Source: Polychytrium aggregatum (taxonomy: Eukaryota; Chytridiomycota; Chytridiomycetes; Polychytriales). Taken from it: a stretch of DNA of 64,000 bases. The stretch lies in assembly GCF_025602895.1 (NCBI RefSeq), contig NW_026516219.1, positions 248,001 to 312,000 of the forward strand, given 5' to 3'. The position numbers and the translations under genes are program-made. The notes beneath the pieces were generated by a model. The model was given only the letters and a program-made list of their open reading frames with translations, did not search any database and had not been told where the DNA came from. Shown here piece by piece: positions 1-56,085 of this stretch (positions are counted from its first letter, which is position 1; each line of letters starts with the position of its first letter).

Positions 1-690
1 AGGTCTTGGACAGGTCTCGGACAATTCCCACGCCATGAACCAGGAACCTTACCAGGGCAGCGTATGAGGTCGGATATGTCAAGAAGATGCCAGCGGCGTC
101 GCGGAGACTCATGCCCGTGGGCACCTTGTGGATGTGCTCGACGCCGCTGAGGACGTACTCTGCATAGCAACCGGTCTTGCCGTTTCCAAAGACTCGATCG
201 CCGGGCTGGAATCCCTGGACCTTGGGACCCACGGCCACGACGACCCCGGCAAACTTGGATCCGGGTGAGCAAATAACAACATGAGTCCACAGCTCGGCAG
301 GTTCGACGTGTCTCAGGGCGGCGCCGAAACCTGCTTCCATGACCTTGGGCCACTGCTTCGTCGACTCGCTACGGCTCTCGCATTCGCGAAGATGGAATAT
401 CGGTCCTGGTCGCGCTCTCGATCAGCACGGCTCAATCCAGCCAGGGCACTGCTCGTTGGTCGCCCAGCCCTCACCTCGGCTCCGGGGATGAATGGACGCT
501 TTGGCTTGGTCTGGTGCTTGCCCGTGACGACAAGGGCATCGAAGAAATTGAGCCCGATGGCTGCGACCCGGACGAGCACCTCGGTTTCGCCCAGCGGTTT
601 GCCAGGCGCGAGGCCGGGCAGCTCTGGAAACGAGGTCGAGACGGCAAGCTCCGAGTGCGACTGGAGCCACTGCGACACGACGATGGCCTT
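1..690 (-). CDS. quinone oxidoreductase-like MDR protein, 5' part
   Basis: This is the N-terminal part of a medium-chain dehydrogenase/reductase of the NADPH:quinone oxidoreductase type. The ATG is at 690. Exon 1 runs 690-475 and exon 2 runs 253-53; a GTAAGG donor at 52 starts an intron that leaves the window. Splicing 475 to 253 restores the family signature FIPGAEFAGVV. The next exon holds GDRVFG and AAGIFLTYPTSYAAL, the usual GroES-like half leading into the Rossmann domain. The Rossmann domain lies outside the window, so activity cannot be judged. Family assignment is from motif recognition; the substrate is unknown. Confidence 0.8.
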
Positions 691-1029
691 CATGGAGAAA
701 CCAAACAAGCAAACGAGCAAACGAGCGAGCGAGCGAGCGGGTGCAGCAGATCAAAGGCACGGCGAGGGATGTGTTGCTGGGCTCGCCTGGATGTGGAATG
801 GAAACCGAAGGCGATGTCACATGTCGGCGGGCCATTCGTCCCGGCAGTGCCGTTGTCGATGTTTGTGCGAATCGCAACAGGGCGAACGCTCATTCGCTCT
901 TTGTCTGCATCTGTCCTCGGCCTCGAGGTGTCTGCTGCTGGCCCTCGGTGCCGACCCTTGATATCGACCTTCGAGTCACCACCAACACCAACACCAACAC
1001 CACCACCACCACTACGGCCTGTGCCCGGC
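691..1029. other. divergent promoter region with ACCAAC/ACC simple repeat
   Basis: This is non-coding sequence between the divergently transcribed oxidoreductase and Rdx-like genes. It contains a CGAG-rich run near 725-740 and an ACCAACACC-type simple repeat at about 976-1015, just before the downstream ATG. No TATA box is obvious. Confidence 0.4.
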
Positions 1030-1990
1030 ATGCCCACGCTCCGGGTCGGCTTCCGGCGGGTCTTCTGGATCCTGGTTGCTCTCGTCGGCGTGATGTCGCT
1101 CATCGGCTTCATCAGCCTGCGAGACTCATCCAGCGACTGGTCAGCCTCGCCGTACCTGTTCCAGGCCCTCAAGCCTGCTGAGTCGCCCTTGCCAACAGAA
1201 GCCCCTGCGTCGTCGTCGCTGCTGCCTCCTCTGGATGAGGATCTGCCTGAAATCCTGCCTCCAGGCACCAAGATGACGATGGACATGCTCAAGTTGCGCT
1301 GGGCCGCCCTGCGAGAGGCGCCGCTCCACTTTACTATCGAGCACTGGTGAGACTTTGCCGCCGTTTGTCCAAATCTACATGCAGTTGTGTGAGGCCCTAC
1401 GCGCATCTGCACGAAAGCTCCTCTGCCAGGACGTATGGCGGTGCCGATTTGCAGCCATACCTCTCCCGACGCACTCATTTGGGCATCCACCGGTCCGTCT
1501 CCATCTTCACTGCAGCACATCCTGAGGCATGTTCAAGGCTGCCTCCGACGCCTTCAGCCAGGTATGCGGCGATGGTTGCCTTGCTCTCGATGGGCTGTGT
1601 TCTGTGCTGGCGTCGCCGAGGCCGTTGACGCTGACCTCCGATCGGCACTCTGTAATCCTGCAGATTCTGAGAGAAGCTTTCCCCAAGGCCATTATTTCCG
1701 TCAACCCCGTCCCGCCTCGCAAGGGTGCCTTTGAGGTCACCCTCAACGTCGGCAGCGAGGAGGATGGTACGTGGATACTCTCACGATACAGCTCCTGTGC
1801 TCGAGCGATTTGCCAATGTGACTTGGCTGGGCTTGGCTTTGACAGTGCTCTCTCGCTCTCTCGCTCTCCAGACATAGTGGTCTACTCTGGCCTCAACCAG
1901 AGAATGGGAAAGTTCCCCAGCAGCGAAGCGACGTTTGCGGCAGTCGATCAAGGGCTCATGAAGGCTTACAGATCAAAGGCAGACCAATAA
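1030..1990 (+). CDS. Rdx/selenoprotein W-like protein with N-terminal membrane anchor
   Basis: The protein starts with MPTLRVGF and has one membrane segment (FWILVALVGVMSLIGF), a Ser/Pro-rich linker, then the start of a thioredoxin-like Rdx fold (LHFTIEH). The C-terminal half, FKAASDAFSQ-ILREAFPKAIISV-GAFEVTLNVGSEED-DIVVYSG, matches the SelW/SelT (Rdx) pattern. Supported pieces are exon 1 from 1030 to about 1347, an exon ending at 1561, then 1664-1766 and 1872-1990, the last joins being in frame. The exon that should carry the CxxC/CxxU redox motif, between 1350 and 1527, could not be closed. A candidate exon at 1455-1492 gives Cys-His-Thr-Ser, with Ser at the second position. Family call is moderate; a redox role is inferred. 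Confidence 0.5.
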
Positions 1991-2621
1991 GGGCGACCTC
2001 TAGTGTCGCCCCGACGGCGGCCTGATTCTATTTGCCATCGTTGGGCTCTCCCTCGGCGAGCCGAGCCCTTTCTCTTGCTCGGCTCCTCTGCTTGCCCTTG
2101 GTCGGGGACTGAGCGGCGGCACTCTCGCCTTCCCAGGTCCCGGACCAACTCATTCTGGAGATGATGGTGTGCTCACTGGAAAACCCTTTGTGGATCTGAC
2201 GGACCCAAGGACGAGGAATGCTGGTTCCAGGCCATTTGCTTTGGCCGTTTGGACCAGCAATTGTCTCTGTGTCGGAGACACCTCATTCTTGTTCTGCAGC
2301 GGTGGGGCGCCGGAAAATATGCGTTATTGACTGCTGGCCTGCTCTTGGTCCTCGTTGGGATCGTGCCAGACCAGCGCAATAAAAGAATGGGCGTTTGGCA
2401 ATGCATCTCAACGACGAGCAAGTGTGTTCGTGTGCTGGGGGGTGTGGTTCGTCATTTCCACAGCGTCGTGATCACGGCGCATTTTTCTGTCGTCGTTGCC
2501 ATTGATCTCTTGCTCTCCGATCTTCCACCGCATCATCCCATTGCACGTCCGCCCGTCTCCGGTGCCGATCTGTGATTCCGGCTCTCGCTCGCCATCGACA
2601 AGTCGCCGTCCCGCATCCGCC
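1991..2621. other. intergenic, no gene seen
   Basis: About 630 bp lie between two plus-strand genes. It presumably holds the 3' end of the Rdx-like gene and the promoter of the NUFIP1-like gene. Open frames here are short and show no recognisable protein. Confidence 0.4.
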
Positions 2622-5037
2622 ATGAGCTACATTCCACCCGAAGGATTCAAGCCTCCACAGGCTCTCTCGCTGCCCCGGCAGCCCAAGCGCAAAGACCACG
2701 CTCGGAGCAAACCCTCATCGAAACCTGATCCATCGCCATCGCCGCAACAACATCAATCTAGCTCGACATCGACATCGTCCTCGGCCGTGCCAACGCCCAA
2801 TTGGTCTCAGGCGCCTTCCTTTGTGCCTTACGGCTCGGCCGGCGCCGGTTATCCGTTCCAGACGACTGGCTATCCGTTCCAGACCCACAGCAGCTTTGCA
2901 AGCATGCATCTCCAGCCCCAGCTGAGCTATGGACTGCCGATACAGACCTATCCGACATATGCCCTGGGATCGCCCGCGACTGGATCTCTGCACCCGTACT
3001 ATGGAGCCATGTTCCCGGGCGCCCAGGCTGCTTCGTTCGTGCCTGGCATGGCTGGGACTCCCGCTGGCCATGGAATGACTCTGCCAACAGCGTATCCCGG
3101 GTTCTCTCCCGACCCAGTTCCGCACCCATCCGAGCCAGAGTCTTCGTGAGTGCTTTCGCTCGTCGCCGCCGCTACCGCTCGCTTTGCAGCCCAAGGCATT
3201 TTGCTGGCTTGGATCGTCATGGTGATCTGCCCGAGCACCCCGACTCCAATGTCCGATCATTGATCGCCTATTGGGCCTCGTATTCTCATCCACGACGGCG
3301 ACACCTCGGCAGGTTCGACTGCGAGCCCTGCGACAAATCATTCAAGACCGAGGCGCAGTACAAAAGCCATATCAAAGGACACGTCAAGTGCAAAGCATGC
3401 AATTATGAGGCCCTGGCCAAGATCCTGCTGCTCCATGAAGAGGGCGAGCACGGCCTGGTTAACGGCGTCAAGTAAGCTGCATCCCTCCCTCCCTCCCCTT
3501 CATCATCATGCCAACCATGGACAGAGAGTCGAGCCGGTCGTCCATTGTCGAGATTCGATCGTCAATGGCGGCTTGCTGGTCGCCTATCACTAATTGCCGG
3601 GGACCGATCCCGGACTGCCTCCAGGAAAGCGCCGTTTGTGCCCACCAATACTCCGGAGGAGATTGCATCATGGATCCAAGCCCGCAAGAAGCGATACCCG
3701 ACCGACGAGAACGTCCGACTGAAAGTAGGAATCGCTGGCATGGAATGTCGTCCCTTCGCTCATCTCGCCGTTCGCTGGATCGTGTGCTCGTTGCAGAAGC
3801 AGTCCGTATCAGCTCATGTGGAGCATGTGCGCACTACGGTGCCGTTTCGGGTTGCCAGCACGGCTATTCGATCGAGCGTGTCTCTGGCAACAGCGATGGA
3901 TCGTGTACTTGTTGTGGGTGAGCTCACGTCGACTTCTTCTCTCGCAGCAACGGCACGAGGAAGAAGAGATCAAGAAGGGCAAGGTCCTCTCGGTTTCCAA
4001 ACGGAAGATTGTCCAGAAGCACAGCTGCGAGGCTGATTCCAAGCGATCCAAGACCGAGCCTGAGGTGGGCCATCCAGTTGTGAGACTATCGGGGATATGT
4101 TTTGTGCGCTGAGCAAGCATCAAGGACAGTCCCGGTCGTGCAGTTCTTGGTACCAAGTCGCGGCTCTCGCTGGCCTCCTGGATGGCACCTTTGAATCCGA
4201 CACTTGCCCCGCCATCGTTGAAAGCGATCGAGCAACGTCGTGGCTATGAATGCGAACTAATATGCCGCTATCCCATGTCTCGACAGAGCTCAAAGCCAAG
4301 CGACAATCCGCTTTCGATGCTCTCGAGCTACGATTCAAACGATGAATCGGACGGCAAGAGTAGTTCCAACAGCAGCGACAGCGATGCAGACAGCGATGAT
4401 GGCGGCAGTGACAAGGCGGAGATCGACCAAGGCGACAATGAAGATGACAACAGCGACCGCGACCAGTCTTCCAAACGCAAGTCCTCGGACCAGCGCAAGG
4501 ACTCTCGTCCAAAGATCAACCGACCCTGTCGCTACTTTCTGCGTGGCCACTGCCATAACGGCGACAACTGCCGTTTCCTGCACGATCCCAGCCGACTCCG
4601 GCGCCCACAAAGCCGTGCTGCTGCTGGATCGCAGGGCGCTTCATCAACTTCATCCCCGCACGACAAGCTGAATGCCAAGCCGGGATTGGGAGACGATTCG
4701 GTTGCCGCCGCCGCTGCTGCTGCTGCTGCTGCTGCTGCAGCCGCTGAGCAGAAGCGACGGCCAGGTTTGCTCCGCATGGTAAGTTTTGTGCATGGCGGCA
4801 AAGCTTCGGCCCGCTCTGTTCAACCAGCATTGCTGCCATGGAGATCGAACCGGATGCGCTCAAGATGTGACTCTCGGAGGGCGATGGCTTCGCTCTCGAG
4901 ACATGCTGCTGGTTGCTTCTAATACTGCATCCATACACTCGATTCAGCTGTTGGAGCAGCAGATTGTGCAAGAAAAGAACACTCTCTTGCAGTGCATCCG
5001 ATACATTGTCGAGCACGACTTTTTCGGATGCGAGTGA
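2622..5037 (+). CDS. NUFIP1: NUFIP1-like RNA-binding protein with C2H2 and CCCH zinc fingers
   Basis: Exons 2622-3145, 3313-3471, 3625-3724, 3948-4064, 4287-4778 and 4948-5037 join in frame to 493 aa. A Pro/Ser/Tyr-rich N-terminus is followed by a C2H2 finger (FDCEPCDKSFKTEAQYKSH). Next comes the NUFIP1 core TPEEIASWIQARKKRYPT, the diagnostic block of the Rsa1/NUFIP family. An acidic Ser/Asp stretch precedes a CCCH finger (CRYFLRGHCHNGDNCRFLH), a poly-Ala run and the C-terminal LLEQQIVQEKNTLLQCIRY block. NUFIP1/Rsa1 is an assembly factor for box C/D snoRNPs working with Snu13 and R2TP in the nucleus. The CCCH finger resembles the arrangement in some fungal and plant homologues. Family assignment is firm; function is by homology. 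Confidence 0.87.
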
Positions 5038-7077: not shown

Positions 7078-7406
7078 GGCGGGATCGGTGTCGCTGGTGA
7101 TGGTTTGCAGGGGTGGATGAAGACGAAGCCGACCGCCACTATGAAAAAATTTCTTGTTAATAAAATGAGCGAGAACGAAAAAACGCGCTCTCGGAGCCAC
7201 CTCGGTCGGCGAGAAGAGCAGTCTCTGGCGAGAGACCCCCGAGGGAAGGCGAGAAGCCTCTCGCCGTCACACACACACACTTTGCACAAGGGAGTCAAAC
7301 ACCTCCCATCGACCATCCCAAGAGGGATGGCAACCCCGAAGTGGACTGCCCAGAATATGGGCGACCCGGCATCCACTGTCGAAATGCACAAGGAACAAGA
7401 TGCTTA
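7078..7406. other. MMS2 promoter flank next to the Fanzor element end
   Basis: This 330-bp stretch lies between the MMS2 start and the TA dinucleotide (7405-7406) bordering the Fanzor element. It has an AT-rich patch at 7140-7185 and a short CA repeat at about 7268-7281. It is host flank by position and is where MMS2 promoter elements must lie. Confidence 0.45.
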
Positions 7407-7443
7407 CAGTCTATCCAGAAAGAAACGGGACAGTCACTTTCTG
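7407..7443 (-). repeat. terminal inverted repeat end of Fanzor element 1
   Basis: These are the terminal bases beginning CAG after a TA, matching the terminus of the copy ending at 25287 almost base for base. The Fanzor stop codon (7434-7436) falls inside it, only 27 bp from the element edge. Confidence 0.7.
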
Positions 7444-9833
7444 GCTTCTGAAGCCCGCTGACTGACTTGTAGGCCCAGCGGGCAGGCCGTGAGATTGTTT
7501 CCCGTCCTGGTTGGCAATCTCTTTGTTTTGGTTGGTTTCGGGAGCACAGTCTTGAATACACTCGGTCGATCTCCTGTGGCGATGATCGACTGGCATACCG
7601 AGATCATGTTCCTTGAGGCATTGATGTCTCGATCCCACAGCGTATGGCAGCTTGCACAGCTCCGGACAAAGTGTGGTTTCTCGATATCAAGATGCTCGAC
7701 CTTCTCGAGTCGCTTGGCTTCGCGACAATGTGAGCACACCTGAGATGTGTTGAACTCGTTCACCGAGCACACATGGATCTTGGAGACGGATCGGTCTGGT
7801 GGTCGTCTCTGGTGGTGGTGGAACTGCTCGAAATACTTGGCAAACCTGAGTCTTCTGGGACTGGATGCATATCCCTTCCCTTGCTTCCAGGATGCATTCC
7901 CAAAGGCAATCACCACTTCGGTCTCCGGTGGTGCCTGGTCGATGACTTGCTTGCACATCTCGTGGACAGTGCGCTGTCGCTTGCCGTAGAGATCGAGTCG
8001 CTTGAATCGCCGTCGCCGGGTCAGGCTGAAGTACAGCTGTTTCTCCAGCATGTCTCCATCGAACACATGGTAGATGTATCGCAGGAAGGAAGACACCCCG
8101 GGGATCTTGGGGCTCGGTGTGGTGCTCATCCATTCCTGCAGACCAAGGATCTTGTGGGTGCTCTGGATCCACTTGGTCGCCTGGCTGGTGCCAGTTCGAT
8201 GCTGGTACTCCTTGTTGGAGAACGACACAATCTTCTCGTTGGCACGCTGTGCCTTGGTCACCTTGACACCGTCTCGCTCCTGGATGGATGGTTGACCGGG
8301 TGCCCGAATGACAGCGGTGAAGATCGATCCCACTCCAGGGTCGATCCCGATCCATGTGATCCGAGAGTCGTCAATGGGACCGACCCTGGCCTGGATCTTC
8401 TTCTCGGGAGTGAGCTTGAGTGTCATGTCGTCCTTGTCTGTGGTTTCTGGTTTGGCATCAGGGTCCTTCTTCTCCAGGATCTTGTATCTGAGCGTGGTGA
8501 TTGAGCACCCGACCCCATCGGTGGTGATCTCGCAGCCAAAGAGCTGCTTTCCCTCCTTCCTGGCACCAAAGAGTCTCGGATCCAGCTTGAAGTTGGTCTG
8601 CCAGAAGGTCTCTTGCTTTGTGGTGCCATTGACCTTGGTCTTCAGGTCGTCCCACTTGAGTCCAGTGCCAGTCTGGTATCCAAGGATTTCCCACAGTGCT
8701 TTGGTGTCGAGCTTGACATACTTGGCTCGGGCATCGCAGAGCGGGACCAAGGTGCACTGTGCTCGAGGGACATTGTGTCGCTTCTTGGTCTGGGCAAGCC
8801 GGTCGGTGAGGCGCTTAATCCGCTTCGTGTTGATGGTGATCTGCTTGCACACCTCCTCGTGCTGGGTCTGGAGTGCTTCGAGTCTGTCAGCCCCGATGTG
8901 GTGGATGGGTTGACACATCTCCTCGTTCAGTCGCCCACGCTCTCCTTTCAGATCTTCGGTATCCCTCGCGAGCCTGGGAATGATCATCTTCTGGATGGCC
9001 GCCATGAAGAGGGCCTCCTTCAGGTGGGTCAGTCGAGAGACTTCACTGGCCAGTTTCGATACAACTCGATACAGGTCCTGGTGGCTTTCGTACCGAAGCT
9101 CATACAACTGGTCGGCATGGTGGGCGAAGGATTTCCTCAGATCACCGAGGAGTGTCTTGGAGAGGGGATTCTCCATCAGCTTCATACACTCATCGACGTG
9201 TGTGTGCCGTTTCACATCCTTGGGAGCAACCAGGACCAGATTGCAGTATCGGCGTAGAAGGGACCAATACCGATCGAGAACGTGGGTCTCACAGTTGACT
9301 GCATAGGTCTTGACAGCCAAACCAAGGACCTGTGACCCAGTACCCTTTGGGAGGGACACAGGAGGCAGGATACACGACTTTCCCCATGTACTTCGGTACA
9401 TCTCATATGTGTCGAGGATGTGCCTGTCATCTTCTGGGGTGTTTGTCCTGACACCCACTGTTCCTGTCTGCACCATATTGAAGCATTTTCGAACGAACGT
9501 GGGTTCACTCGACGACACAGTGGGGAGAGTGATGCCCTCGTCCAAGCACCGCCTGAGATGCAGCTCCAGGAGACGAGATGCTTCGTACTGCACATGTGTC
9601 ATGGCCCAGACAGTCTCCTCGATCTTGTCGTGCAAGGTGTCGTTCTTGATGATGGCATCGAGGGTGCACTTGATGATCGAGTAGTCGGCCTTGACTTGCT
9701 CGTTTGGGCCACAGCCAGGCAAGGTAGAGCTCCAGAGTGGGTTATAGAAACGGCACTTTGGGGTGTTGCTTCTGGCATGACCCACTTGCTTGCACGTGGC
9801 ACATACAGGGACCTTGGGTGCTTGGCTGACCAT
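7434..9833 (-). CDS. Fanzor (eukaryotic TnpB-like RNA-guided nuclease), copy 1
   Basis: This encodes a TnpB/Fanzor-type nuclease of 799 aa from the first in-frame ATG. The frame stays open upstream to a TGA at 10008-10010. That extra stretch encodes a zinc knuckle (CPSCGLANHVRPFTKKC), so the true start may lie further out. Within the CDS are a second knuckle (CATCKQVGHARSNTPKC), a long helical region and a RuvC core. RuvC-I is WIGIDPGVGSIFTAVI (Asp498). NEFNTSQVCSHC follows (Glu693, Cys700, Cys703), then SCASC (Cys726, Cys729) and WDRDIN (Asp736). The usual RuvC-II acid is absent: that strand reads VVIAFGNASW. Fanzor proteins are RNA-guided DNA endonucleases of transposons; the guide is expected to derive from the 3' end of the gene and element. 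There are no introns, unlike host genes. Confidence 0.88.
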   Translation of the reverse strand: MVSQAPKVPVCATCKQVGHARSNTPKCRFYNPLWSSTLPGCGPNEQVKADYSIIKCTLDAIIKNDTLHDKIEETVWAMTHVQYEASRLLELHLRRCLDEGITLPTVSSSEPTFVRKCFNMVQTGTVGVRTNTPEDDRHILDTYEMYRSTWGKSCILPPVSLPKGTGSQVLGLAVKTYAVNCETHVLDRYWSLLRRYCNLVLVAPKDVKRHTHVDECMKLMENPLSKTLLGDLRKSFAHHADQLYELRYESHQDLYRVVSKLASEVSRLTHLKEALFMAAIQKMIIPRLARDTEDLKGERGRLNEEMCQPIHHIGADRLEALQTQHEEVCKQITINTKRIKRLTDRLAQTKKRHNVPRAQCTLVPLCDARAKYVKLDTKALWEILGYQTGTGLKWDDLKTKVNGTTKQETFWQTNFKLDPRLFGARKEGKQLFGCEITTDGVGCSITTLRYKILEKKDPDAKPETTDKDDMTLKLTPEKKIQARVGPIDDSRITWIGIDPGVGSIFTAVIRAPGQPSIQERDGVKVTKAQRANEKIVSFSNKEYQHRTGTSQATKWIQSTHKILGLQEWMSTTPSPKIPGVSSFLRYIYHVFDGDMLEKQLYFSLTRRRRFKRLDLYGKRQRTVHEMCKQVIDQAPPETEVVIAFGNASWKQGKGYASSPRRLRFAKYFEQFHHHQRRPPDRSVSKIHVCSVNEFNTSQVCSHCREAKRLEKVEHLDIEKPHFVRSCASCHTLWDRDINASRNMISVCQSIIATGDRPSVFKTVLPKPTKTKRLPTRTGNNLTACPLGLQVSQRASEARK

Positions 9834-23700: not shown

Positions 23701-24374
23701 TATGGAGATGATTGGGCGGAACGAGGCATCGACCGACGACGAGACCTGGTCGACAATGCCGTGAATGGTGTGCTGATCGACCAGCTTGGGCACTACTTCC
23801 GATATATGGTCAAAGGCATCATTGGATGTGCTCTCCGCGGTTGGAGCCAGGGCAGAGAGCGGGACCATGAAAGTTTGGAGCGAGGCTGCGGGATGGACAA
23901 GCACCACAGGAGGCAGAACGAGCAAGGCAAAATCGAGCCGAACGCAGGTCAATACAGGCGAGTGAATCGAGACAGATGGGAATACAGTGCAGGGAGCAAG
24001 CGCTGCTCCAGAGTGCCGAAGGATGCAGAGATTCTGTCGGCGTTGTCTGCTTCCTCTTCCGCTCCCATGCAACACTGGGTCGAAGGGGACACACCGTTCG
24101 CTTGGCGGATGTGCTTTCTGTCCGAGGTCGGCTGTGTGAGCCACGAGAGCTGGAGATGGCTTTGGTCGGCAGAGAGGCCAAAGTACTGCAGCCGGGTGTC
24201 GGGATGGCTCCGGGAAGCGATATCGGTGGCCGAGTAACCTTCCAGGTCATAGGGCCTCAGGATGTGGGCCGATTTGACCCGGGGCAGCGGAAAGGGAGGG
24301 GCGTTGATCAAGAAAATTGTTCCAAGGAAGAGAATGCCAAGGACGCCCACGATGGCGGCGTTGGTGAATGCCAT
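20763..24374 (-). CDS. unrecognised multi-exon membrane protein
   Basis: The ATG at 24374 opens with a signal anchor (AAIVGVLGILFLGTIFLIN). The last exon ends at 20763 with a second hydrophobic segment (LLTALIGCVSAFFVNELRY). Confident coding blocks, all minus, include LQYFGLSADQSHLQLSWLT, FDHISEVVPKLVDQHTIHGI, VHVHNYNYKGNTPVEALSIG, KVFRFLPRDSDCVLDDLLPV, FKAPIDIIAVSEIY, NTFLVISASPLDETSINFRL, EYVGKHNTPGGFYVTSHWIS and SDLLVMTHQPIAPRGSKRHK. At least nine exons are implied; most junctions were not closed. The layout (membrane segment at each end, large polar domain between) suggests an ER or vacuolar luminal protein. GHIHTL resembles a metallophosphoesterase motif, but the other motifs of that fold were not found in order. 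The function is unknown. Confidence 0.55.
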
Positions 24375-24551
24375 GGCTCCCGGCGGCGTAGAGCGCTCGT
24401 CCAGCCGGCAGGGGTTTGGCGGGTCGGCAAGTGTCAGGCAGATCGAGTCCAAGCGAGGAGGAGGAGACAGGCAGCACGACAACGAGGATGCCTTGGGGAG
24501 GGCGTTGTGCGACCAGGCTGTCCAGGAGGTTGTTGCACGCCACCGCGCCCA
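24375..24551. other. promoter flank between membrane-protein gene and Fanzor fragment
   Basis: Only about 180 bp separate the start codon of the minus-strand membrane-protein gene from the break in the Fanzor fragment, so the insertion lies in or beside that gene's promoter. No promoter motif is obvious. Confidence 0.35.
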
Positions 24552-25236
24552 GTTGCAGGAATGGATGAGCACCACACCAAGTCCCAAGATCCCCGGGATG
24601 GCTTCCTTCCCGCAATACATTCGCCATGTGTTCGATGGAGACATGCTGGACAAACAGCTGTACTTCAGCCTGACCCGGCGACGGCGATTCAAGCGACTCG
24701 ATCTCTACGGCAAGCGACAGCGCACTGTCCACGAGATGTGCAAGCAAGTCATCAACCAGGCACCAAAGGAGACCGAAGTGGTGATTGCCTTTGGGAATGC
24801 ATCCTGGAAGCAAGGGAAGGGATATGCATCCAGTCCCAGGAGGCTCAGGTTTGCCAAGTACTTCGAGCAGTTCCACCACCACCAGAGACGACCACCAGAC
24901 CGATCCGTCTCCAAGATCCATGTGTGCTCGGTGAACGAGTTCAACACATCTCAGGTGTGCTCACATTGTCGCGAAGCCAAGCGACTCGAGTCACCCGAGT
25001 ATCTTGATATCGAGAAACCACACTTTGTACGGAGCTGTACAAGCTGCCATACGCTGTGGGATCGAGACATCAATGCAGCCAGGAATATGATCTCGGTATG
25101 CCAGTCGATCATCGCCACAGGAGATCGACCGAGTGTATTCAAGACTGTGCTCCCGAAACCAACCAAAACAAAGAGATTGCCAACCAGGACGGGAAACAAT
25201 CGCACGGCTTGCTCGCTGGGGCCTACAGTCAGTTAG
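24552..25236 (+). pseudogene. Fanzor, 3' fragment (copy 3)
   Basis: This encodes the C-terminal half of the RuvC domain, from LQEWMSTTPSPKIPG through VVIAFGNASWKQG, NEFNTSQVCSHC and WDRDINAARN. It is nearly identical to copy 1 but ends earlier after small indels (LGPTVS then stop). It lacks RuvC-I and all N-terminal parts, so it cannot make a nuclease. An open frame continues upstream to 24262 by chance through host DNA. Confidence 0.85.
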
Positions 25237-25287
25237 CGGGCTTCTGAAGCCAGAAAGTGACTGTCCCGTTTCTTTCTGGATTGACTG
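24552..25287 (+). mobile_element. 5'-truncated Fanzor element with intact terminus
   Basis: Similarity to Fanzor element 1 starts abruptly at about 24552 (GCAGGAATGGATGAGCACCA) and runs to the terminus at 25287. The terminus is CCCGTTTCTTTCTGGATTGA ending CTG, followed by TA. It lacks roughly the first two-thirds of the gene and any second TIR. High similarity to copy 1 suggests a fairly recent event. Confidence 0.8.
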
Positions 25288-25671
25288 TAGATCCACCTGA
25301 CCAGGTGTGCGATATGATCCGACTACGCCGTGTTTGTCCGGATGAGACGATGTGTCCCACTTTTTCTTCAACACGCTCTATGCTGGTCCTGTCATGGAGC
25401 CCGGAGTGGGGACTCATCCTGGCAGCCTGGTCGATCCCACCGGCCCCTCGACAGCATCCCTACCGAAGGTCACTCTGTTCATGAATCTACATGCGTGTTG
25501 GAAGCCACCGACAGCTGCCACCCTCTCCGGCAACCAAGTTCATCGACCACCACGGTCCCTACAGCCGACAAGAGGATGCGAGCATGAGTCACGGACTGGA
25601 AGCAACTCCCAAGATGCTCAACACAATTGACAGTCGACAGCAGGCATCCTCCAAACAGTTGTCTCGATTGA
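25288..25671. other. intergenic, no gene seen
   Basis: This is host flank between the Fanzor terminus and the 3' end of the carrier gene. Nothing coding is recognised. Confidence 0.35.
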
Positions 25672-46620: not shown

Positions 46621-46890
46621 AGCGCAACGGACCAGCAGCAAGCGCTGTGATCGCCTCCCTCTCCCTCGTCCTCCGAGTGAACAGGATTAGGCACACGAGC
46701 TCCTGGCATTTCGACTTGATATGCTCTTTGTCCTCCCCTCCCCCTCCATTTTATATCCCGTTCTCTCCTTTATCTCTTGTCTTTTTTTTTGCTCCGTAAC
46801 GAACCTTTAAACTCCCACTTTGTGTCTTGTTAGATTCCGGTACCGTGCGCGCTTTGACTGGATGGATCCTGCCGTGAGTCTCTTGCTTTA
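46621..46890. other. TPS 3' flank up to mariner insertion
   Basis: This is the 3' untranslated region and flank of the TPS gene, T-rich at 46783-46793. The Tc1/mariner element is inserted at the TA at 46889-46890, about 270 bp after the stop codon. Confidence 0.45.
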
Positions 46891-46958
46891 CAGGCAATCC
46901 AATAAAAAACGGGACACCCGGGATTTTGACCATTCATCGAATATTTTGTTACCCAATG
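46891..46958 (+). repeat. left terminal inverted repeat of the mariner-Fanzor element
   Basis: This begins CAGGCAATCCAATAAAAAAC right after TA and continues GGGACACCCGGGATTTTGAC to about 46958. It pairs with 50732-50799 at most positions, with exact identity over CAATCCAATAAAAAACGGGA. Confidence 0.93.
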
Positions 46959-46974
46959 TTATCGCGCGCTGGCC

Positions 46975-47778
46975 ATGACCATTCGCCACACATCCCGGGT
47001 CCCAGCTCGCAGATCCACTTTCTTCGAGCAGGCATGTCCAGTCATTCGCACCCTGATTGAACAGGACCCGTTCCAGACTGGTCCTGTGTTGCAATGCAAG
47101 CTCGAGTCCATCCTCCAGAGGAAAGTATCACTCTCACTCTGCCACACTGCCATCCAGCGAGCAGGTCTCTCACACAAGAGGGCAACACACCTCTACAAGT
47201 CCAAGCGACTGGATGAGCGAGTGGCACAGTTCAGGGACCAGGTCCGCTCCATCGACCCGCGGCGATTCGTTTTTGTCGACGAGACGGGGATCAGGAAATC
47301 CATTTTCCCTCTTTACGGATACTCGCCGAAGGGTGCTCCGCTTCGCCAGTGCAATCACATGAAACACAAGTCTGTCTCGGCTGCATTTGCCATCAACCAC
47401 TCTGGTGTGCTGCATCGCATGTACATCCCCACATCATTCAAGACACACTCGATGGTCGAGTTCTTTGAGCGAGCGACCTTCCCAGACGACTCTGTGGTTG
47501 TGATGGACAATGTCAGCATGCACAAGACAAGGGCTGTCCTGGACTGCATCGAGCGCCGAGGATGGTCAGTGATCTTCACCCCACCTGCTTCACCCGACTT
47601 CAATCCCATCGAGAACTTCTTTGGGGTTGTGAAGCATCAGTACAGGAAGGCAGCAGCGCTGAATGCGTCCGAGGGGTTCAAGGTCGGGATGGTGACCCTG
47701 TTTGAGTCTGCCGTTCGGAGGGTGCTTCCAGATGTCTTCCCACGGCTGATTGAGCGAGCGATGCGCTTCTGGGGTTGA
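46975..47778 (+). CDS. Tc1/mariner DD34E transposase
   Basis: The protein is 267 aa with no introns. Its N-terminus contains one helix-turn-helix-like segment (LSLCHTAIQRAGLSHKRATH). The catalytic triad is Asp102 (FVFVDETG), Asp178 (VVMDNVSMHK) and Glu213 (DFNPIENFFG). The Asp-Glu spacing is 34 residues, the Tc1-type DD34E. The frame starts 17 bp inside the left inverted repeat. At 267 aa it is shorter than the usual 340 aa because the first DNA-binding helix-turn-helix is missing, or supplied by an unseen exon. The transposase should cut and paste the element at TA sites. It lies 251 bp upstream of the Fanzor gene in the same direction. Confidence 0.93.
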   Translation: MTIRHTSRVPARRSTFFEQACPVIRTLIEQDPFQTGPVLQCKLESILQRKVSLSLCHTAIQRAGLSHKRATHLYKSKRLDERVAQFRDQVRSIDPRRFVFVDETGIRKSIFPLYGYSPKGAPLRQCNHMKHKSVSAAFAINHSGVLHRMYIPTSFKTHSMVEFFERATFPDDSVVVMDNVSMHKTRAVLDCIERRGWSVIFTPPASPDFNPIENFFGVVKHQYRKAAALNASEGFKVGMVTLFESAVRRVLPDVFPRLIERAMRFWG

Positions 47779-47895
47779 GTTCCCTCCAATCAAGCCGCCG
47801 TTCTCACGTTCACATCCCTGTCTTGAACCTCTCGGCGATTTTTGAACAGGGTCACTTCCCCAACCAGCCCGCAACGACGGGCTCCTGCTCTTGGG

Positions 47896-47902
47896 TATAA
47901 AT
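47896..47902 (+). promoter_or_regulatory. TATA box of the mariner Fanzor
   Basis: TATAAAT lies 128 bp upstream of the Fanzor ATG at 48030, in the gap after the transposase. It suggests the Fanzor has its own promoter rather than depending on transposase read-through. Confidence 0.5.
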
Positions 47903-48029
47903 GTCCCACCTTCGTCCTGCTGCTTTCTTCCCTCATCTCGCCTTGATCTGATCATTCGCGCCATTGTACGATAAAAAAGTCTCTGCTCTGACCAGTACCA
48001 CTGGCAGGCATCCAGCATTCTCTGGCCCC

Positions 48030-50402
48030 ATGCCTCCGAAGCGTAAGGGTACCGGTGATGGCCAGCCTCGGCCACCCAGGCCCAAGAAAGCCAAGTCACA
48101 GTCGGAGCCTGTCTCTGGTTCGTATTCTGACCCCACGCATGCTTGTTTCTCTGTTGCTCCGTCGCTCACCACCACTGCTTCTGCAGATCCAATGGATGTC
48201 GATCCCACCGAGCCTGGTCCATCTACTTCCTCGAGTACCGGCAAGCGATGTCGCCAGTGCGATGGCACCGATCACGAACGTTGCAACACCAGCAAATGTC
48301 CCAAATACCGGCCCCTCAAGAGTTCTGTCGTCCCACTCGTGGATGGAAGGTCATCCGCCCCTCAGTTCAGCTGCTTCAAGCAGACGATGGATGGCTGTTG
48401 TCTCAATCCCGCTCTCCGCGACAAGATCCAGGCCACCGTCGAGGCCATGACCCAGATCCAGTTCGAGGCATCCAGGCTGCTCAACCTGCACATCCTCCGG
48501 TGCATCGAGCAGGATCTTCCCGTCCCCGTCATCTCCAAGGCCACCCCTGCTTTCATCCGCCAGTGCTTCACGATTGTCGAGGCCGGTGCCCTCTCCCCGA
48601 CCGGGGACAATGAGAAATACAACGAGCATCTGGTCGCTTCCTTTCGCGACTACCAGACCACTCGGCACGCAGACCTGCCTCCGGCCCCTCGTCTGCCTGA
48701 TGGCGCTCACAGTCAGCTTCTCACCCTGGCTGTCAATGCCTATGCCACCAACTGCACCACCCACCTCAACCTGGCCTACTGGCGACTCCTTCGCCGCTTC
48801 TGCGCTGCCGTCTTCCCAGCCAACAAGCACAAGCACGAAGCCATCGAGGCCTGTCTCGAGCTCTTCGAGAAACCAGGGCAGACTCCACCCAAGGCCGATC
48901 TCGAGTTCCTCTATCCAGACTTTGGCCACGTCCTGGACGAGTTTCGGTACAGCAACGACCAGGACCGCTTCCGGGCCCTCCATCGCCTCTCACACCATGT
49001 GAGAATCCTCGCCCGAGACAAGATGGTCGACGATGTCCACAAGTGGATCGACTGCGACATGCCCGCCCTCCGAGTCACCGAACTGCAGCGCCAGGCCAAG
49101 CTGGACGAGCTCACTACCCAAGGCATTCCCTCCGACGACAAGAGGTTCACCACGGCCAAGTCTGAGCTCGGCACCACCAAGGCCAAGATCAACAAGCTGG
49201 CATCCAGGATCAACTGGGCACTCAAGCAGCTCGCTCTCGACACTCCTCCGGCCGTGTGCACGATAGTTCCTCTATGCACAGCCAAGGTCAAGTATGTCAA
49301 GATTGACACGGTCACTCTCTGGCAACTCCTTGACACCGAACAGCACCTTGGCCTCACCTGGGACATGCTCAAGGAAGAAGGTGAGGACGGCATCAACAAC
49401 CAGGATCGTCTCTGGCGCAGCTGCTTCAAGCTGCGTAGTTCCCTCTTCCAAGAGCGAGACGTGAACAAGAAGCTGTTCAACTACGAGATCAGCACCGATG
49501 GCATTGGATGCACCATCGGCCTCGTCAAGTTTGTGCGTCGAACCGATCACACCGAGACCACCACACCCGTCAAGACTGCCGAGCAGCGTATCCAGGCCCA
49601 CATCGGCAGCCCAGACCCCGACAAGACCACTTGGATTGGCATCGATCCTGGAGTCGGCTCCATCTTCACGGCGGTCATCCAAGCACCGGGCCACCAAGAC
49701 GAGGTGGTCTCGTTCTCCAATGGCCACTACCAGCACATGTGTGGCCACAAGTCCAACACCGACTGGCACAACACCATGAAGTATCGACTCAGCATCGAGA
49801 CCTGGATGTCGACCACCCCCTCGCCCAAGGTGTCGTCCTCGGAGGCCTTCAAGGTCCATCTCACCCATGTCCTGCGACCGGAGCTGCGAGTGCAGCTCGA
49901 CTTCCACCTTGGCAAGAAGGCCCGTCACCATCGCTTCACGGGCCACAAGAGGCGCCAAGTGGCCGTCGACAGGATGTGCAAGGCCGTCCTGAAGCACGCC
50001 CCGATACGGACCGATGTGGTGATCGCCTTTGGCAATGCGTCATGGCGTCAAGGCAAGGGCTATGCATCCAGCCCTCGGAGGCAGCGGTTTGCTCGGTACT
50101 TTGAGCAGTTCGAGCACCACCGACGCCGTCCCAATCACCCTCATGGAAGCGTCAAGGTGGCCTCAACGAACGAGTTCAACACCTCGCAGGTGTGCTCCAA
50201 GTGCCTGGAGCCAGTTCGGTTGGAAGGACTCGATGCGCCCAGTGTTGCGAATTCCCACTTTGTCAGGAGCTGCAAGAATCCCAGCTGCCGGACAGTGTGG
50301 AATCGCGACGTCAATGCGGCGCGCAACATGATCACAGTATGCAAGTCGATTGTGGAGACCGGAGGGCGACCGGCGGTCTTCACTCGGAGGCTGCCAAAGT
50401 GA
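48030..50402 (+). CDS. Fanzor (eukaryotic TnpB-like RNA-guided nuclease), copy 2, intact
   Basis: The protein is 790 aa with no introns. The ATG at 48030 is preceded by CCCC and opens MPPKRKGTGDG...PPRPKKAKSQ, a likely bipartite nuclear localisation signal. A zinc knuckle (CRQCDGTDHERCNTSKC) and a helical region follow. The RuvC nuclease has Asp539 (WIGIDPGVGSIFTAVI), Glu715 (NEFNTSQVCSKC), a zinc finger with Cys722, Cys725, Cys748 and Cys753, and Asp760 (WNRDVNAARN). As in copy 1, the usual RuvC-II acid is absent (VVIAFGNASW), and Glu715 is the likely replacement. Fanzors are RNA-guided DNA endonucleases; the guide RNA is expected from the region around the gene end and the right element end. 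The sequence is similar but far from identical to copy 1, so it is an older sister lineage. Confidence 0.92.
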   Translation: MPPKRKGTGDGQPRPPRPKKAKSQSEPVSGSYSDPTHACFSVAPSLTTTASADPMDVDPTEPGPSTSSSTGKRCRQCDGTDHERCNTSKCPKYRPLKSSVVPLVDGRSSAPQFSCFKQTMDGCCLNPALRDKIQATVEAMTQIQFEASRLLNLHILRCIEQDLPVPVISKATPAFIRQCFTIVEAGALSPTGDNEKYNEHLVASFRDYQTTRHADLPPAPRLPDGAHSQLLTLAVNAYATNCTTHLNLAYWRLLRRFCAAVFPANKHKHEAIEACLELFEKPGQTPPKADLEFLYPDFGHVLDEFRYSNDQDRFRALHRLSHHVRILARDKMVDDVHKWIDCDMPALRVTELQRQAKLDELTTQGIPSDDKRFTTAKSELGTTKAKINKLASRINWALKQLALDTPPAVCTIVPLCTAKVKYVKIDTVTLWQLLDTEQHLGLTWDMLKEEGEDGINNQDRLWRSCFKLRSSLFQERDVNKKLFNYEISTDGIGCTIGLVKFVRRTDHTETTTPVKTAEQRIQAHIGSPDPDKTTWIGIDPGVGSIFTAVIQAPGHQDEVVSFSNGHYQHMCGHKSNTDWHNTMKYRLSIETWMSTTPSPKVSSSEAFKVHLTHVLRPELRVQLDFHLGKKARHHRFTGHKRRQVAVDRMCKAVLKHAPIRTDVVIAFGNASWRQGKGYASSPRRQRFARYFEQFEHHRRRPNHPHGSVKVASTNEFNTSQVCSKCLEPVRLEGLDAPSVANSHFVRSCKNPSCRTVWNRDVNAARNMITVCKSIVETGGRPAVFTRRLPK

Positions 50403-50649
50403 TCTGTTTTATTTCTTGTGGCTTTGCTTGACGCAAGCACAGCACATACTACATGTTCATGGAAACGGCTATATTGTCCCGTTTTTTTCTGAATAAAGTG
50501 TACACATGAGTAAACGGGGCGCCCTCACGATCCCATTTGTCAGCGTAGTATGCGATGGCATGCGTCAAGCTAAGCCATAAGAAATAAAACGGATCACTTT
50601 GGCAGACTCTGAGTGAACACCACCAGTCGCTCTCCGGTCCCCACAATCG
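50341..50649 (+). repeat. inverted duplicate of the Fanzor 3' end
   Basis: Bases 50341-50437 (last 62 coding bases plus 35 after the stop) recur in reverse complement at about 50559-50649, with scattered mismatches. Shared blocks include TGCCAAAGTGATC and GTTTTATTTCTT. The 120-bp spacer holds TTGTCCCGTTTTTTCTGAATAAAGTG followed by TA (50474-50501), itself a family-type terminus. Transcribed, this would form a long stem-loop overlapping the Fanzor stop. Confidence 0.8.
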
Positions 50650-50731
50650 ATCCGCACACTGGCCTCGGAGTGCCAGCGGTGAATGGTGCCCTTGGACACA
50701 CTGGCGAATGACCATGGTCAGCACGCGATGG
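50403..50731 (+). ncRNA. candidate Fanzor guide-RNA (omega-RNA) region
   Basis: This is the non-coding stretch between the Fanzor stop and the right terminal repeat, including the hairpin-forming inverted duplicate. TnpB and Fanzor guide RNAs come from the 3' end of the gene and run to the element end, so this is where one should lie. Its boundaries and expression cannot be read from sequence alone. Confidence 0.35.
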
Positions 50732-50799
50732 TATTGAGTAACAAAATATTTGATCAATCGTCAAAATGACGGATGTCCCGTTTTTTATTGGATTGGCTG
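50732..50799 (-). repeat. right terminal inverted repeat of the mariner-Fanzor element
   Basis: The reverse complement reads CAGCCAATCCAATAAAAAAC then GGGACATCCGTCATTTTGAC to ACTCAATACC. It ends directly before TA at 50800-50801 and matches the left repeat at 46891-46958. Confidence 0.93.
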
Positions 50800-51149
50800 T
50801 AACCGTTTGATTGGACGAGCGCTGGAGACGCCGCGCTGTGGAGGGTCTCATCCCACAGATTCACCGACGAATGACGTCGACAGAGCCAACCATGATTGGG
50901 CAGCATTGTATTCTGATCTAGAGTGACGGATCGGATGAGACAACAGTCCGCCGCAGGGCGGGCCATCAGCGTTGGAGCGGACAGGGTGCAGCGACGACTC
51001 CATACTTACCAGTGCTTTGTACGAATACTCGCTGTTGGGACCGGCCAGGTATCCCTGGGTCTTCCGGGACATCTTGTCTTGACCAAGCATCGACTTGACT
51101 CCCTGCAACAGGTAATCGCCGACCTGTCTGTGGCGACCACTTCCTGGAA
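50800..51149. other. flank between mariner element and WD40 gene
   Basis: This 350-bp region contains the WD40-gene promoter. On the minus strand 51114-51023 reads like a short exon (GQDKMSRKTQGYLAGPNSEY) between an AG and a GTAAGT donor. It could belong to a small divergent gene, but no start-to-stop model could be closed. Confidence 0.3.

Positions 51150-56009: not shown

Positions 56010-56085
<76 letters not shown>

Follow-up and report, generated by a model that had tools for sequence, protein, structure and literature searches.

The stretch of DNA analyzed here (the window) comprises 64,000 nt of the Polychytrium aggregatum genome (contig NW_026516219.1), and all coordinates are numbered along it. 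It contains a mariner-like element encoding both a transposase and a Fanzor, relatives of which were collected from the assembly of the window (64.7 Mb, 418 contigs). In these relatives a T precedes the TA at the left end, some left ends begin with bases of the right flank, and the T is lost in part of the copies in which a second Fanzor lies behind a nearly identical transposase. We consider it probable, with modest confidence, that the Fanzor cuts empty sites beside TTA and that repair copies the element in. More tentatively, we read the insertion sites as a natural record left by a eukaryotic Fanzor in RNA-guided homing, in which TTA would be the target-adjacent motif (TAM), the left-end scars would be kept target tails and an exchange of Fanzor would reset the site rule.

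Loci and contigs are cited below by our own numbers, preceded by L and C. Among 1274 candidates 57 were scored, giving at least 57 full-length matches to the Fanzor with identities of 93-100% (alleles counted separately); an in-frame stop interrupts 12 of them. In addition, 144 transposase matches were scored. At ≤3 mismatches the ends of the family numbered 276 on the right and 382 on the left, alleles not merged, with none in the reversed control. Of the 100 listed exact left ends, 58 were tried against the listed right ends and 51 could be paired, at an end-to-end spacing of 3178-3791 bp (41 pairs), 1115 bp (3), 384-386 bp (3), 313 bp (3) and 284 bp (1). A listed transposase was located 230-341 bp upstream from 35 of the 57 Fanzor copies. 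The loci form a non-random sample: for the Fanzor the best protein matches were taken and 50 of them fetched, and the short elements were drawn from separate searches. By simple motif and length rules the transposase was intact in 11 of the 50 fetched Fanzor copies, the Fanzor in 35 and both genes in 8.

The flanking bases were read from a table of 94 insertions with both junctions, obtained after rows of the same right flank had been merged. Twenty-two junctions were first skipped (13 loci with divergent or unfound ends and nine pieces of the short type S1, described below); six of the nine were restored, and two rows were too short. Flanking bases were scored for 88 of the 94 insertions, five having no TA in the expected place and one more having dropped out. 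The base 5' of the left TA was T in 84 of 88 insertions (42/43 Fanzor loci and 42/45 short elements), against a background of 158 T-preceded sites among the 1309 TA sites of the window. Among exact left ends genome-wide, 174 of 180 read T-TA and six had another base (alleles not merged). The insertion L050 lies in a repeat, uninterrupted copies of which (window 7137-7288, minus strand, and L020 4720-4891) read T-TA with a single TA. These copies stand in for an empty site and show, for this one site, that the TA was duplicated and that the T belongs to the target and not to the element. The sequences of these junctions identify the left T-TA as a TAM-like motif.

A second Fanzor, 40% identical to the first, is encoded on the minus strand of the window (7434-9833; 799 aa, uninterrupted). 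Its right end, TGTCCCGTTTCTTTCTGGATAGACTGTA, is located at about 7405-7432, and no left end for it was found within the window. The window also holds a fragment of a copy of this second family at 24262-25236 (plus strand), with a similar right end at 25262-25289. At least 56 copies of the second Fanzor are present in the genome (56 scored of 1638 candidates), and in seven of the 56 the Fanzor follows, at a distance of 363-364 bp, a transposase with 95-96% identity to that of the window. One such copy, read in pieces, has the family left end and the end of the transposase, followed by a different Fanzor start and right end. The bases before the left TA of six of these copies were G, C, T, A, T and T, while the seventh runs off its contig; in the copy of contig C96 the TA is changed to TG at the left junction. 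Left ends without the T thus amount to 3/6 with the second Fanzor, compared with 4/88 in the first family (Fisher p 0.005) and 6/180 among the exact left ends (p 0.0015). The second-Fanzor left ends also differ at one base, reading CAGCC for CAGGC. Since the T rule is lost with another Fanzor behind a near-identical transposase, the site rule seems to go with the Fanzor and not with the transposase.

The left terminus of some insertions opens with right-flank bases and passes into element sequence at a short match. This was observed, the slash marking the change, in L033 (left end TAGTGCAATC/C; right flank TAGTGCAATCATG), in L041 (TAGTGGC/AATCC; TAGTGGCGGG) and in L139 (TATGGTC/AATCC; TATGGTCCGCC). 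Each insertion was scored for the longest run of its right flank, counted from the TA, found in the left terminus, and 20,000 shuffles of the flanks were used as control. Runs of 6 nt or more were initially counted in 10 of 94 insertions and runs of 7 nt or more in 7 of 94. Four doubtful cases, whose right flank is the end of another element or looks like one, were then removed: L016 and L101, with apparent scars of 11 and 13 nt, and L001 and L018. After this removal, runs of at least 6 nt (6-10 bases) remained in 8 of 90 insertions, with 1.0 expected, and runs of at least 7 nt in 5 of 90, with 0.16 expected; none of the 20,000 shuffles reached either count. Seven of the eight deviate from the repeated left-end forms of the family; the eighth, L015, has an ordinary left end that shares TACAGG with its flank by chance. 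Among 16 left ends outside every family form, nine match the right flank over 5-10 nt and seven not beyond 4. Of the nine scarred sites, seven retain the T before the TA. Conversely, 0 of 88 insertions have 5 nt or more of their left flank repeated in the right end (the mirror pattern).

Homing by the Fanzor would account for these footprints as follows. The transposase inserts the element at a TA. A guide RNA would be made from the right end together with the flank next to it, and with this RNA the Fanzor would recognize TTA beside that flank sequence on an element-free chromosome and presumably cut to the right of the TTA. If the cut resembled that of SpuFz1, the Fanzor of Spizellomyces punctatus, the left end of the empty chromosome would carry TTA and up to about 16-21 bases of target. 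Repair from the element-bearing chromosome would trim this target tail and copy the element in, and a tail partly matching the left end of the element could escape trimming and stay as a scar. Such retention would leave scars of the observed length and on the observed side, with the right junction intact. The same enzymes would act in trans on short derivatives of the element, here called ghosts. Were homing the correct explanation, the surviving insertions would have been filtered by the nuclease and not by the transposase.

The right end of the element was analyzed as a putative scaffold of the guide RNA. Its terminal stem is predicted to close at the TA or next to it. The comparison covered two right-end lineages that differ in sequence (21 and 7 rows); a third group mixes lineages and was not used. 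The arms of the terminal hairpin paired better within their own lineage (means of -13.3 and -15.0 kcal/mol) than with those of the other (-10.2 and -9.2 kcal/mol), which, over few independent lineages, is no more than suggestive. RNAalifold, applied to the right-end alignment, predicted 11 pairs, two of them with two-sided changes, at -6.9 kcal/mol; the terminal hairpin remained unpaired. Rfam gave no match in the window.

The features of the window copy are collected in Table 1. The full-length sibling L009 was used as reference (REF), and the window element aligned to REF 1-107 and 229-3743. A previous reading of the window, made from the letters only (the sequence-only reading), had described one complete element extending from 46891 to 50799, bounded by paired repeats starting at 46891 and 50732. 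Its left end, with the flanking TA at 46889-46890, was confirmed in the sequence and by alignment. In favor of its right end, a 101-nt inverted pair of 85% identity does exist (46888-46988 and 50702-50802), as do two open frames. However, 50 Fanzor loci were compared, among them the window copy L001 and its allele L002 (contig C30), and all 48 others match the window only to about position 50502; in a few the match extends 3-11 nt further, and beyond it nearly all run into unrelated flanks. In the other copies the repeats of 46891 and 50732 are not paired, an outcome that the sequence-only reading had itself named as a refutation. In the window, 50503-50799 aligns as a ghost, and the transposase of the window copy lacks its helix-turn-helix (HTH) domain. 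A single element is therefore extremely improbable and is refuted as to boundaries. On the right, the Fanzor element ends in TGTCCCGTTTTTTTCTGAATAAAGTG, with the TA next to it (50475-50502), and a guide RNA would end slightly past 50502 and not, as had been proposed, at 50799. The repeat finder also reported that 104 nt of the Fanzor 3' end recur inverted (50335-50438 with 50558-50661) and that the terminal repeat has an internal copy at 50475-50494, both a hint of two abutting elements. The terminal inverted repeats and the TA target-site duplication, the latter seen against uninterrupted single-TA paralogues at one site, are those of a Tc1/mariner element.

Table 1. Position and basis of the features of the window copy, its neighbor and the transposase-linked copies of the second Fanzor.
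Feature	Position	Strand	Basis
T-TA at left junction (TA duplication and 5' T; TAM-like TTA)	46888..46890	+	Sequence; family-wide junction counts
Tc1/mariner (IS630) element with transposase and Fanzor, true extent	46891..50500	+	Alignment to full-length sibling L009; ends of 48/48 other loci
Left terminal inverted repeat CAGGCAATCCAATAAAAAACGGGACA	46891..46916	+	Sequence; genome-wide left-end search
DD34E transposase open reading frame (ORF), 267 aa, lacking 43 aa (N-terminal HTH)	46975..47778	+	129-bp in-frame deletion at about 46988-46995
Fanzor ORF, 790 aa, uninterrupted	48030..50402	+	Open reading frame; TNB domain match
3' region and right end, putative guide-RNA scaffold with predicted terminal stem closing on TA	50403..50502	+	Predicted
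Right terminal inverted repeat TGTCCCGTTTTTTTCTGAATAAAGTG	50475..50500	+	Repeat finder; right ends of other loci
TA common to right ends of Fanzor element and ghost	50501..50502	.	Sequence; alignment
Separate S2-type ghost, tail to tail with Fanzor element	50503..50799	-	REF 1-100, 176-214 and 3576-3693 at 83-87%
T-TA at left junction of ghost	50800..50802	-	Sequence
Transposase-linked second-Fanzor copies (L181-L192)	Contigs C24, C63 (two), C326, C157, C2, C96		

The DD34E transposase, with all three acids, had been recognized correctly: the catalytic D, D and E are present, 34 residues separate the second D from the E (counted by eye), and DDE_3 matched with 85.2 bits. The IS630 model NF033545 scored 106.4 bits in the window copy and 125.6 bits in the sibling L010 (cut-off 100), the match beginning at position 53 in the former and at position 2 in the latter. 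The transposase of L010 has 310 aa with an N-terminal HTH, on which HTH_23 gave a weak match (18.8 bits, below the cut-off of 24.6); this DNA-binding domain is absent from the window copy. The description of a mariner element with its own transposase and a Fanzor is valid, but the copy is not complete: the transposase has lost the HTH, and the right boundary had been taken from the neighboring ghost. Without the DNA-binding HTH, the window copy can at most supply Fanzor and guide.

The uninterrupted Fanzor was likewise upheld, its 790-aa protein matching the TNB domain of TnpB/Cas12f. The motif of Bao and Jurka, D-X(125,275)-[TS]-[TS]-X-X-[C4 zinc finger]-X(5,50)-RD, was found with D539, T718-S719, C722/C725/C748/C753 and R759-D760, with 178 residues from D to T and 5 from the last C to RD. 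The best match among solved structures was SpuFz1 (8gkh), covering the C-terminal 49 residues only, with an E-value of 0.057, above the usual threshold. No relatives elsewhere were found at E 0.001 among the 8000 scored candidates of the protein collection, and none was confirmed in viral contigs. Elsewhere in the window, a perfect GAT trinucleotide array of 25 copies is located at 56010-56085.

The short elements fall into the types S1 (REF 1-99 and 3528-3743), S2 (REF 1-100, 176-209 and from about 3576), S3 (REF 1-209 and 3576-3743), S4 (REF 1-665 and 3296-3743) and S5 (REF 1-99 and 3576-3743). The part of the right end from about REF 3576 is kept in every short element read at both ends, and in several S2 lineages the last 50 bp or so are replaced by a different sequence. 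The S1 junction had 51 matches in the genome, 40 of which are the S1 pieces used above; the S2 junction had 74 at ≤2 mismatches and 91 at ≤3 (5 in the reversed control). The five types have both terminal repeats, the putative RNA region of the right end and, in 42 of 45 short elements, the T 5' of the left TA, and no Fanzor ORF, as Saito et al. define ghosts; in these sequence features they fit the ghost elements of Spizellomyces (PMC10432273). The ghost in the window consists of the left 100 bp, REF 176-214, the last Fanzor codons and the 3' end. Its right end is the right flank, and so the presumed guide, of the Fanzor element. The two share a single TA, and their outer flanks, when joined, give TTAA, which offers T-TA on both strands. 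L034 adjoins a short family member in a similar tail-to-tail arrangement, L018 adjoins another family member, and the right flank of L031 resembles a left end. For L018, L031, L034 and L101 alike, another element's end or an end-like sequence was seen directly adjoining on the right, with the TA shared.

The sequence-only reading had suggested a search for further full-length copies and for empty TA sites, polymorphic insertion being a sign of activity. Many near-identical full-length copies, some with both genes whole, were found in the assembly. The joined flanks of 44 of 51 prepared sites (all but L002, L050, L055-L058 and L060) were searched for empty alleles. A 58-base match across the L031 junction was rejected as an empty allele, being due to the resemblance of the L031 right flank to the left end of the element. 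Two filled places were found at 22 of the 44 sites, consistent with two haplotypes. Two pairs of alleles differ in content. L041 (C223) is a full-length copy and L061 (C156) an S1 ghost at the same site and with the same scarred left end, on two haplotypes. Formation of this ghost in place was considered first, but L061 has the breakpoints common to other S1 ghosts, so that a swap of content is at least as likely. L011 (C334) and L032 (C6) occupy the same site, and their length difference is an internal deletion in the transposase region. These pairs indicate that the content at a fixed site can change.

The pattern might instead be due to the transposase only, an enzyme that, owing to the difference between its two ends, prefers T-TA in one orientation and sometimes joins the left end imprecisely at short matches, with the Fanzor as passenger. 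Most junctions are indeed precise TA insertions, the left and right terminal repeats differ, and TA is the site used by Tc1/mariner enzymes. We nevertheless hold this explanation to be rather unlikely: the T rule was lost in half of the junctions in which a 95-96% identical transposase accompanies another Fanzor, and the scars are one-sided, on the side of the presumed guide target. Moreover, replacement changes in the Fanzor are depleted, the replacement/silent ratio being 0.32 of neutral over 45 copies, although this figure is biased downwards because the copies were chosen by Fanzor similarity; the ratio for the transposase was 0.53 of neutral (45 copies). Alternatively, the Fanzor may act elsewhere, for example by cutting competing family members or regulating the element, and the TTA rule and scars would have a separate cause. 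The presumed guide of the window copy, which is the end of the neighboring ghost, would suit such a role, and so would the similar neighbor of L034. The right flanks of the other copies, however, are nearly all unrelated sequence, and it is exactly from that right-flank sequence that the scars come, which makes this alternative improbable.

Several observations weigh against homing by the Fanzor. No empty allele, and hence no polymorphic insertion, was found at the 44 sites, with no 72-base match across a junction (40/77 and 40/69 candidates scored), and no allele pair was seen in which one left end is precise and the other scarred; present activity is for these reasons not demonstrated. A run of at most 4 matching bases, such as integration by the transposase only would give, was found in 75 of 90 insertions. 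The mirror base, an A after the right TA, was present in 20 of 88 insertions, a slight excess over 13% (p 0.009), so that only the T-TA of the left side counts as a strong motif. Seven single folds of the right end were no better than shuffles (z-scores of -1.15 to +1.18), and the six junctions of the Fanzor exchange are a small sample. Thus the proposal that the nuclease restores the element at empty sites, already made in the sequence-only reading, finds support in the TTA rule and the scars, each confined to one side, and in the T rule being lost with another Fanzor, but none in empty alleles.

This one genome offers many comparable insertions with both enzymes, together with ghosts and a transposase lineage paired with two Fanzors, and makes the proposal of retention or homing directly testable. 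The predictions available are TTA as TAM, a guide for each copy given by its right flank, scars on the left only, and the second Fanzor as a built-in control. A literature search, with subscription papers mostly outside its scope, found neither target scars at left ends nor an exchange of the Fanzor behind a single transposase described. Already known are mariner elements with Fanzor and transposase (PMC3627910), and the ghosts and TAM-matching flank of Spu-1 (PMC10432273).

In Spizellomyces punctatus, a conserved CA precedes the left inverted repeat of the element encoding SpuFz1, the measured TAM is CATA, the cut falls 16-21 bases from the TAM, and ghosts have a working guide RNA (Saito et al. 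2023, PMC10432273). As described there, the biological role of Fanzor was unknown and no transposase lies within the inverted repeats of Spu-1. The present family resembles Spu-1 in having a Fanzor between terminal inverted repeats, conserved bases ahead of the left end, which in Spu-1 match the TAM, numerous ghosts retaining the RNA region of the right end, and a right-end scaffold with a flank guide, the RNA here being predicted. It differs, as far as that description goes, in its co-encoded transposase, its T-TA motif and its target-derived left scars, all known here from sequence, and in a Fanzor much larger than SpuFz1. In the ascovirus Fanzor1, both the target-site duplication and the terminal repeat form part of the reRNA scaffold (Yoon et al. 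2023, PMC10711439), a likeness to the stem that closes on the TA here, which is predicted from few independent lineages.

For TnpB of IS200/IS605, the account in PMC11870625 gives retention by empty-site cutting and copying back, as well as gene drive in plasmids. The logic proposed here would be similar, with a flank-encoded guide, a left-end motif, cutting of the empty site and copying by recombination. In contrast to the TnpA of those elements, a DDE transposase with TA duplication is found here, the setting is a eukaryotic nucleus, and the process is read from its footprints. In gene content the family resembles PGv-1 and PUl-1, in which a Fanzor (there Fanzor1) and a transposase are carried by a TA-flanked Mariner element (Bao and Jurka 2013, PMC3627910). 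PGv-1 is described there as a single copy, whereas the P. aggregatum family has many near-identical copies, ghosts and two types of Fanzor behind a single transposase lineage.

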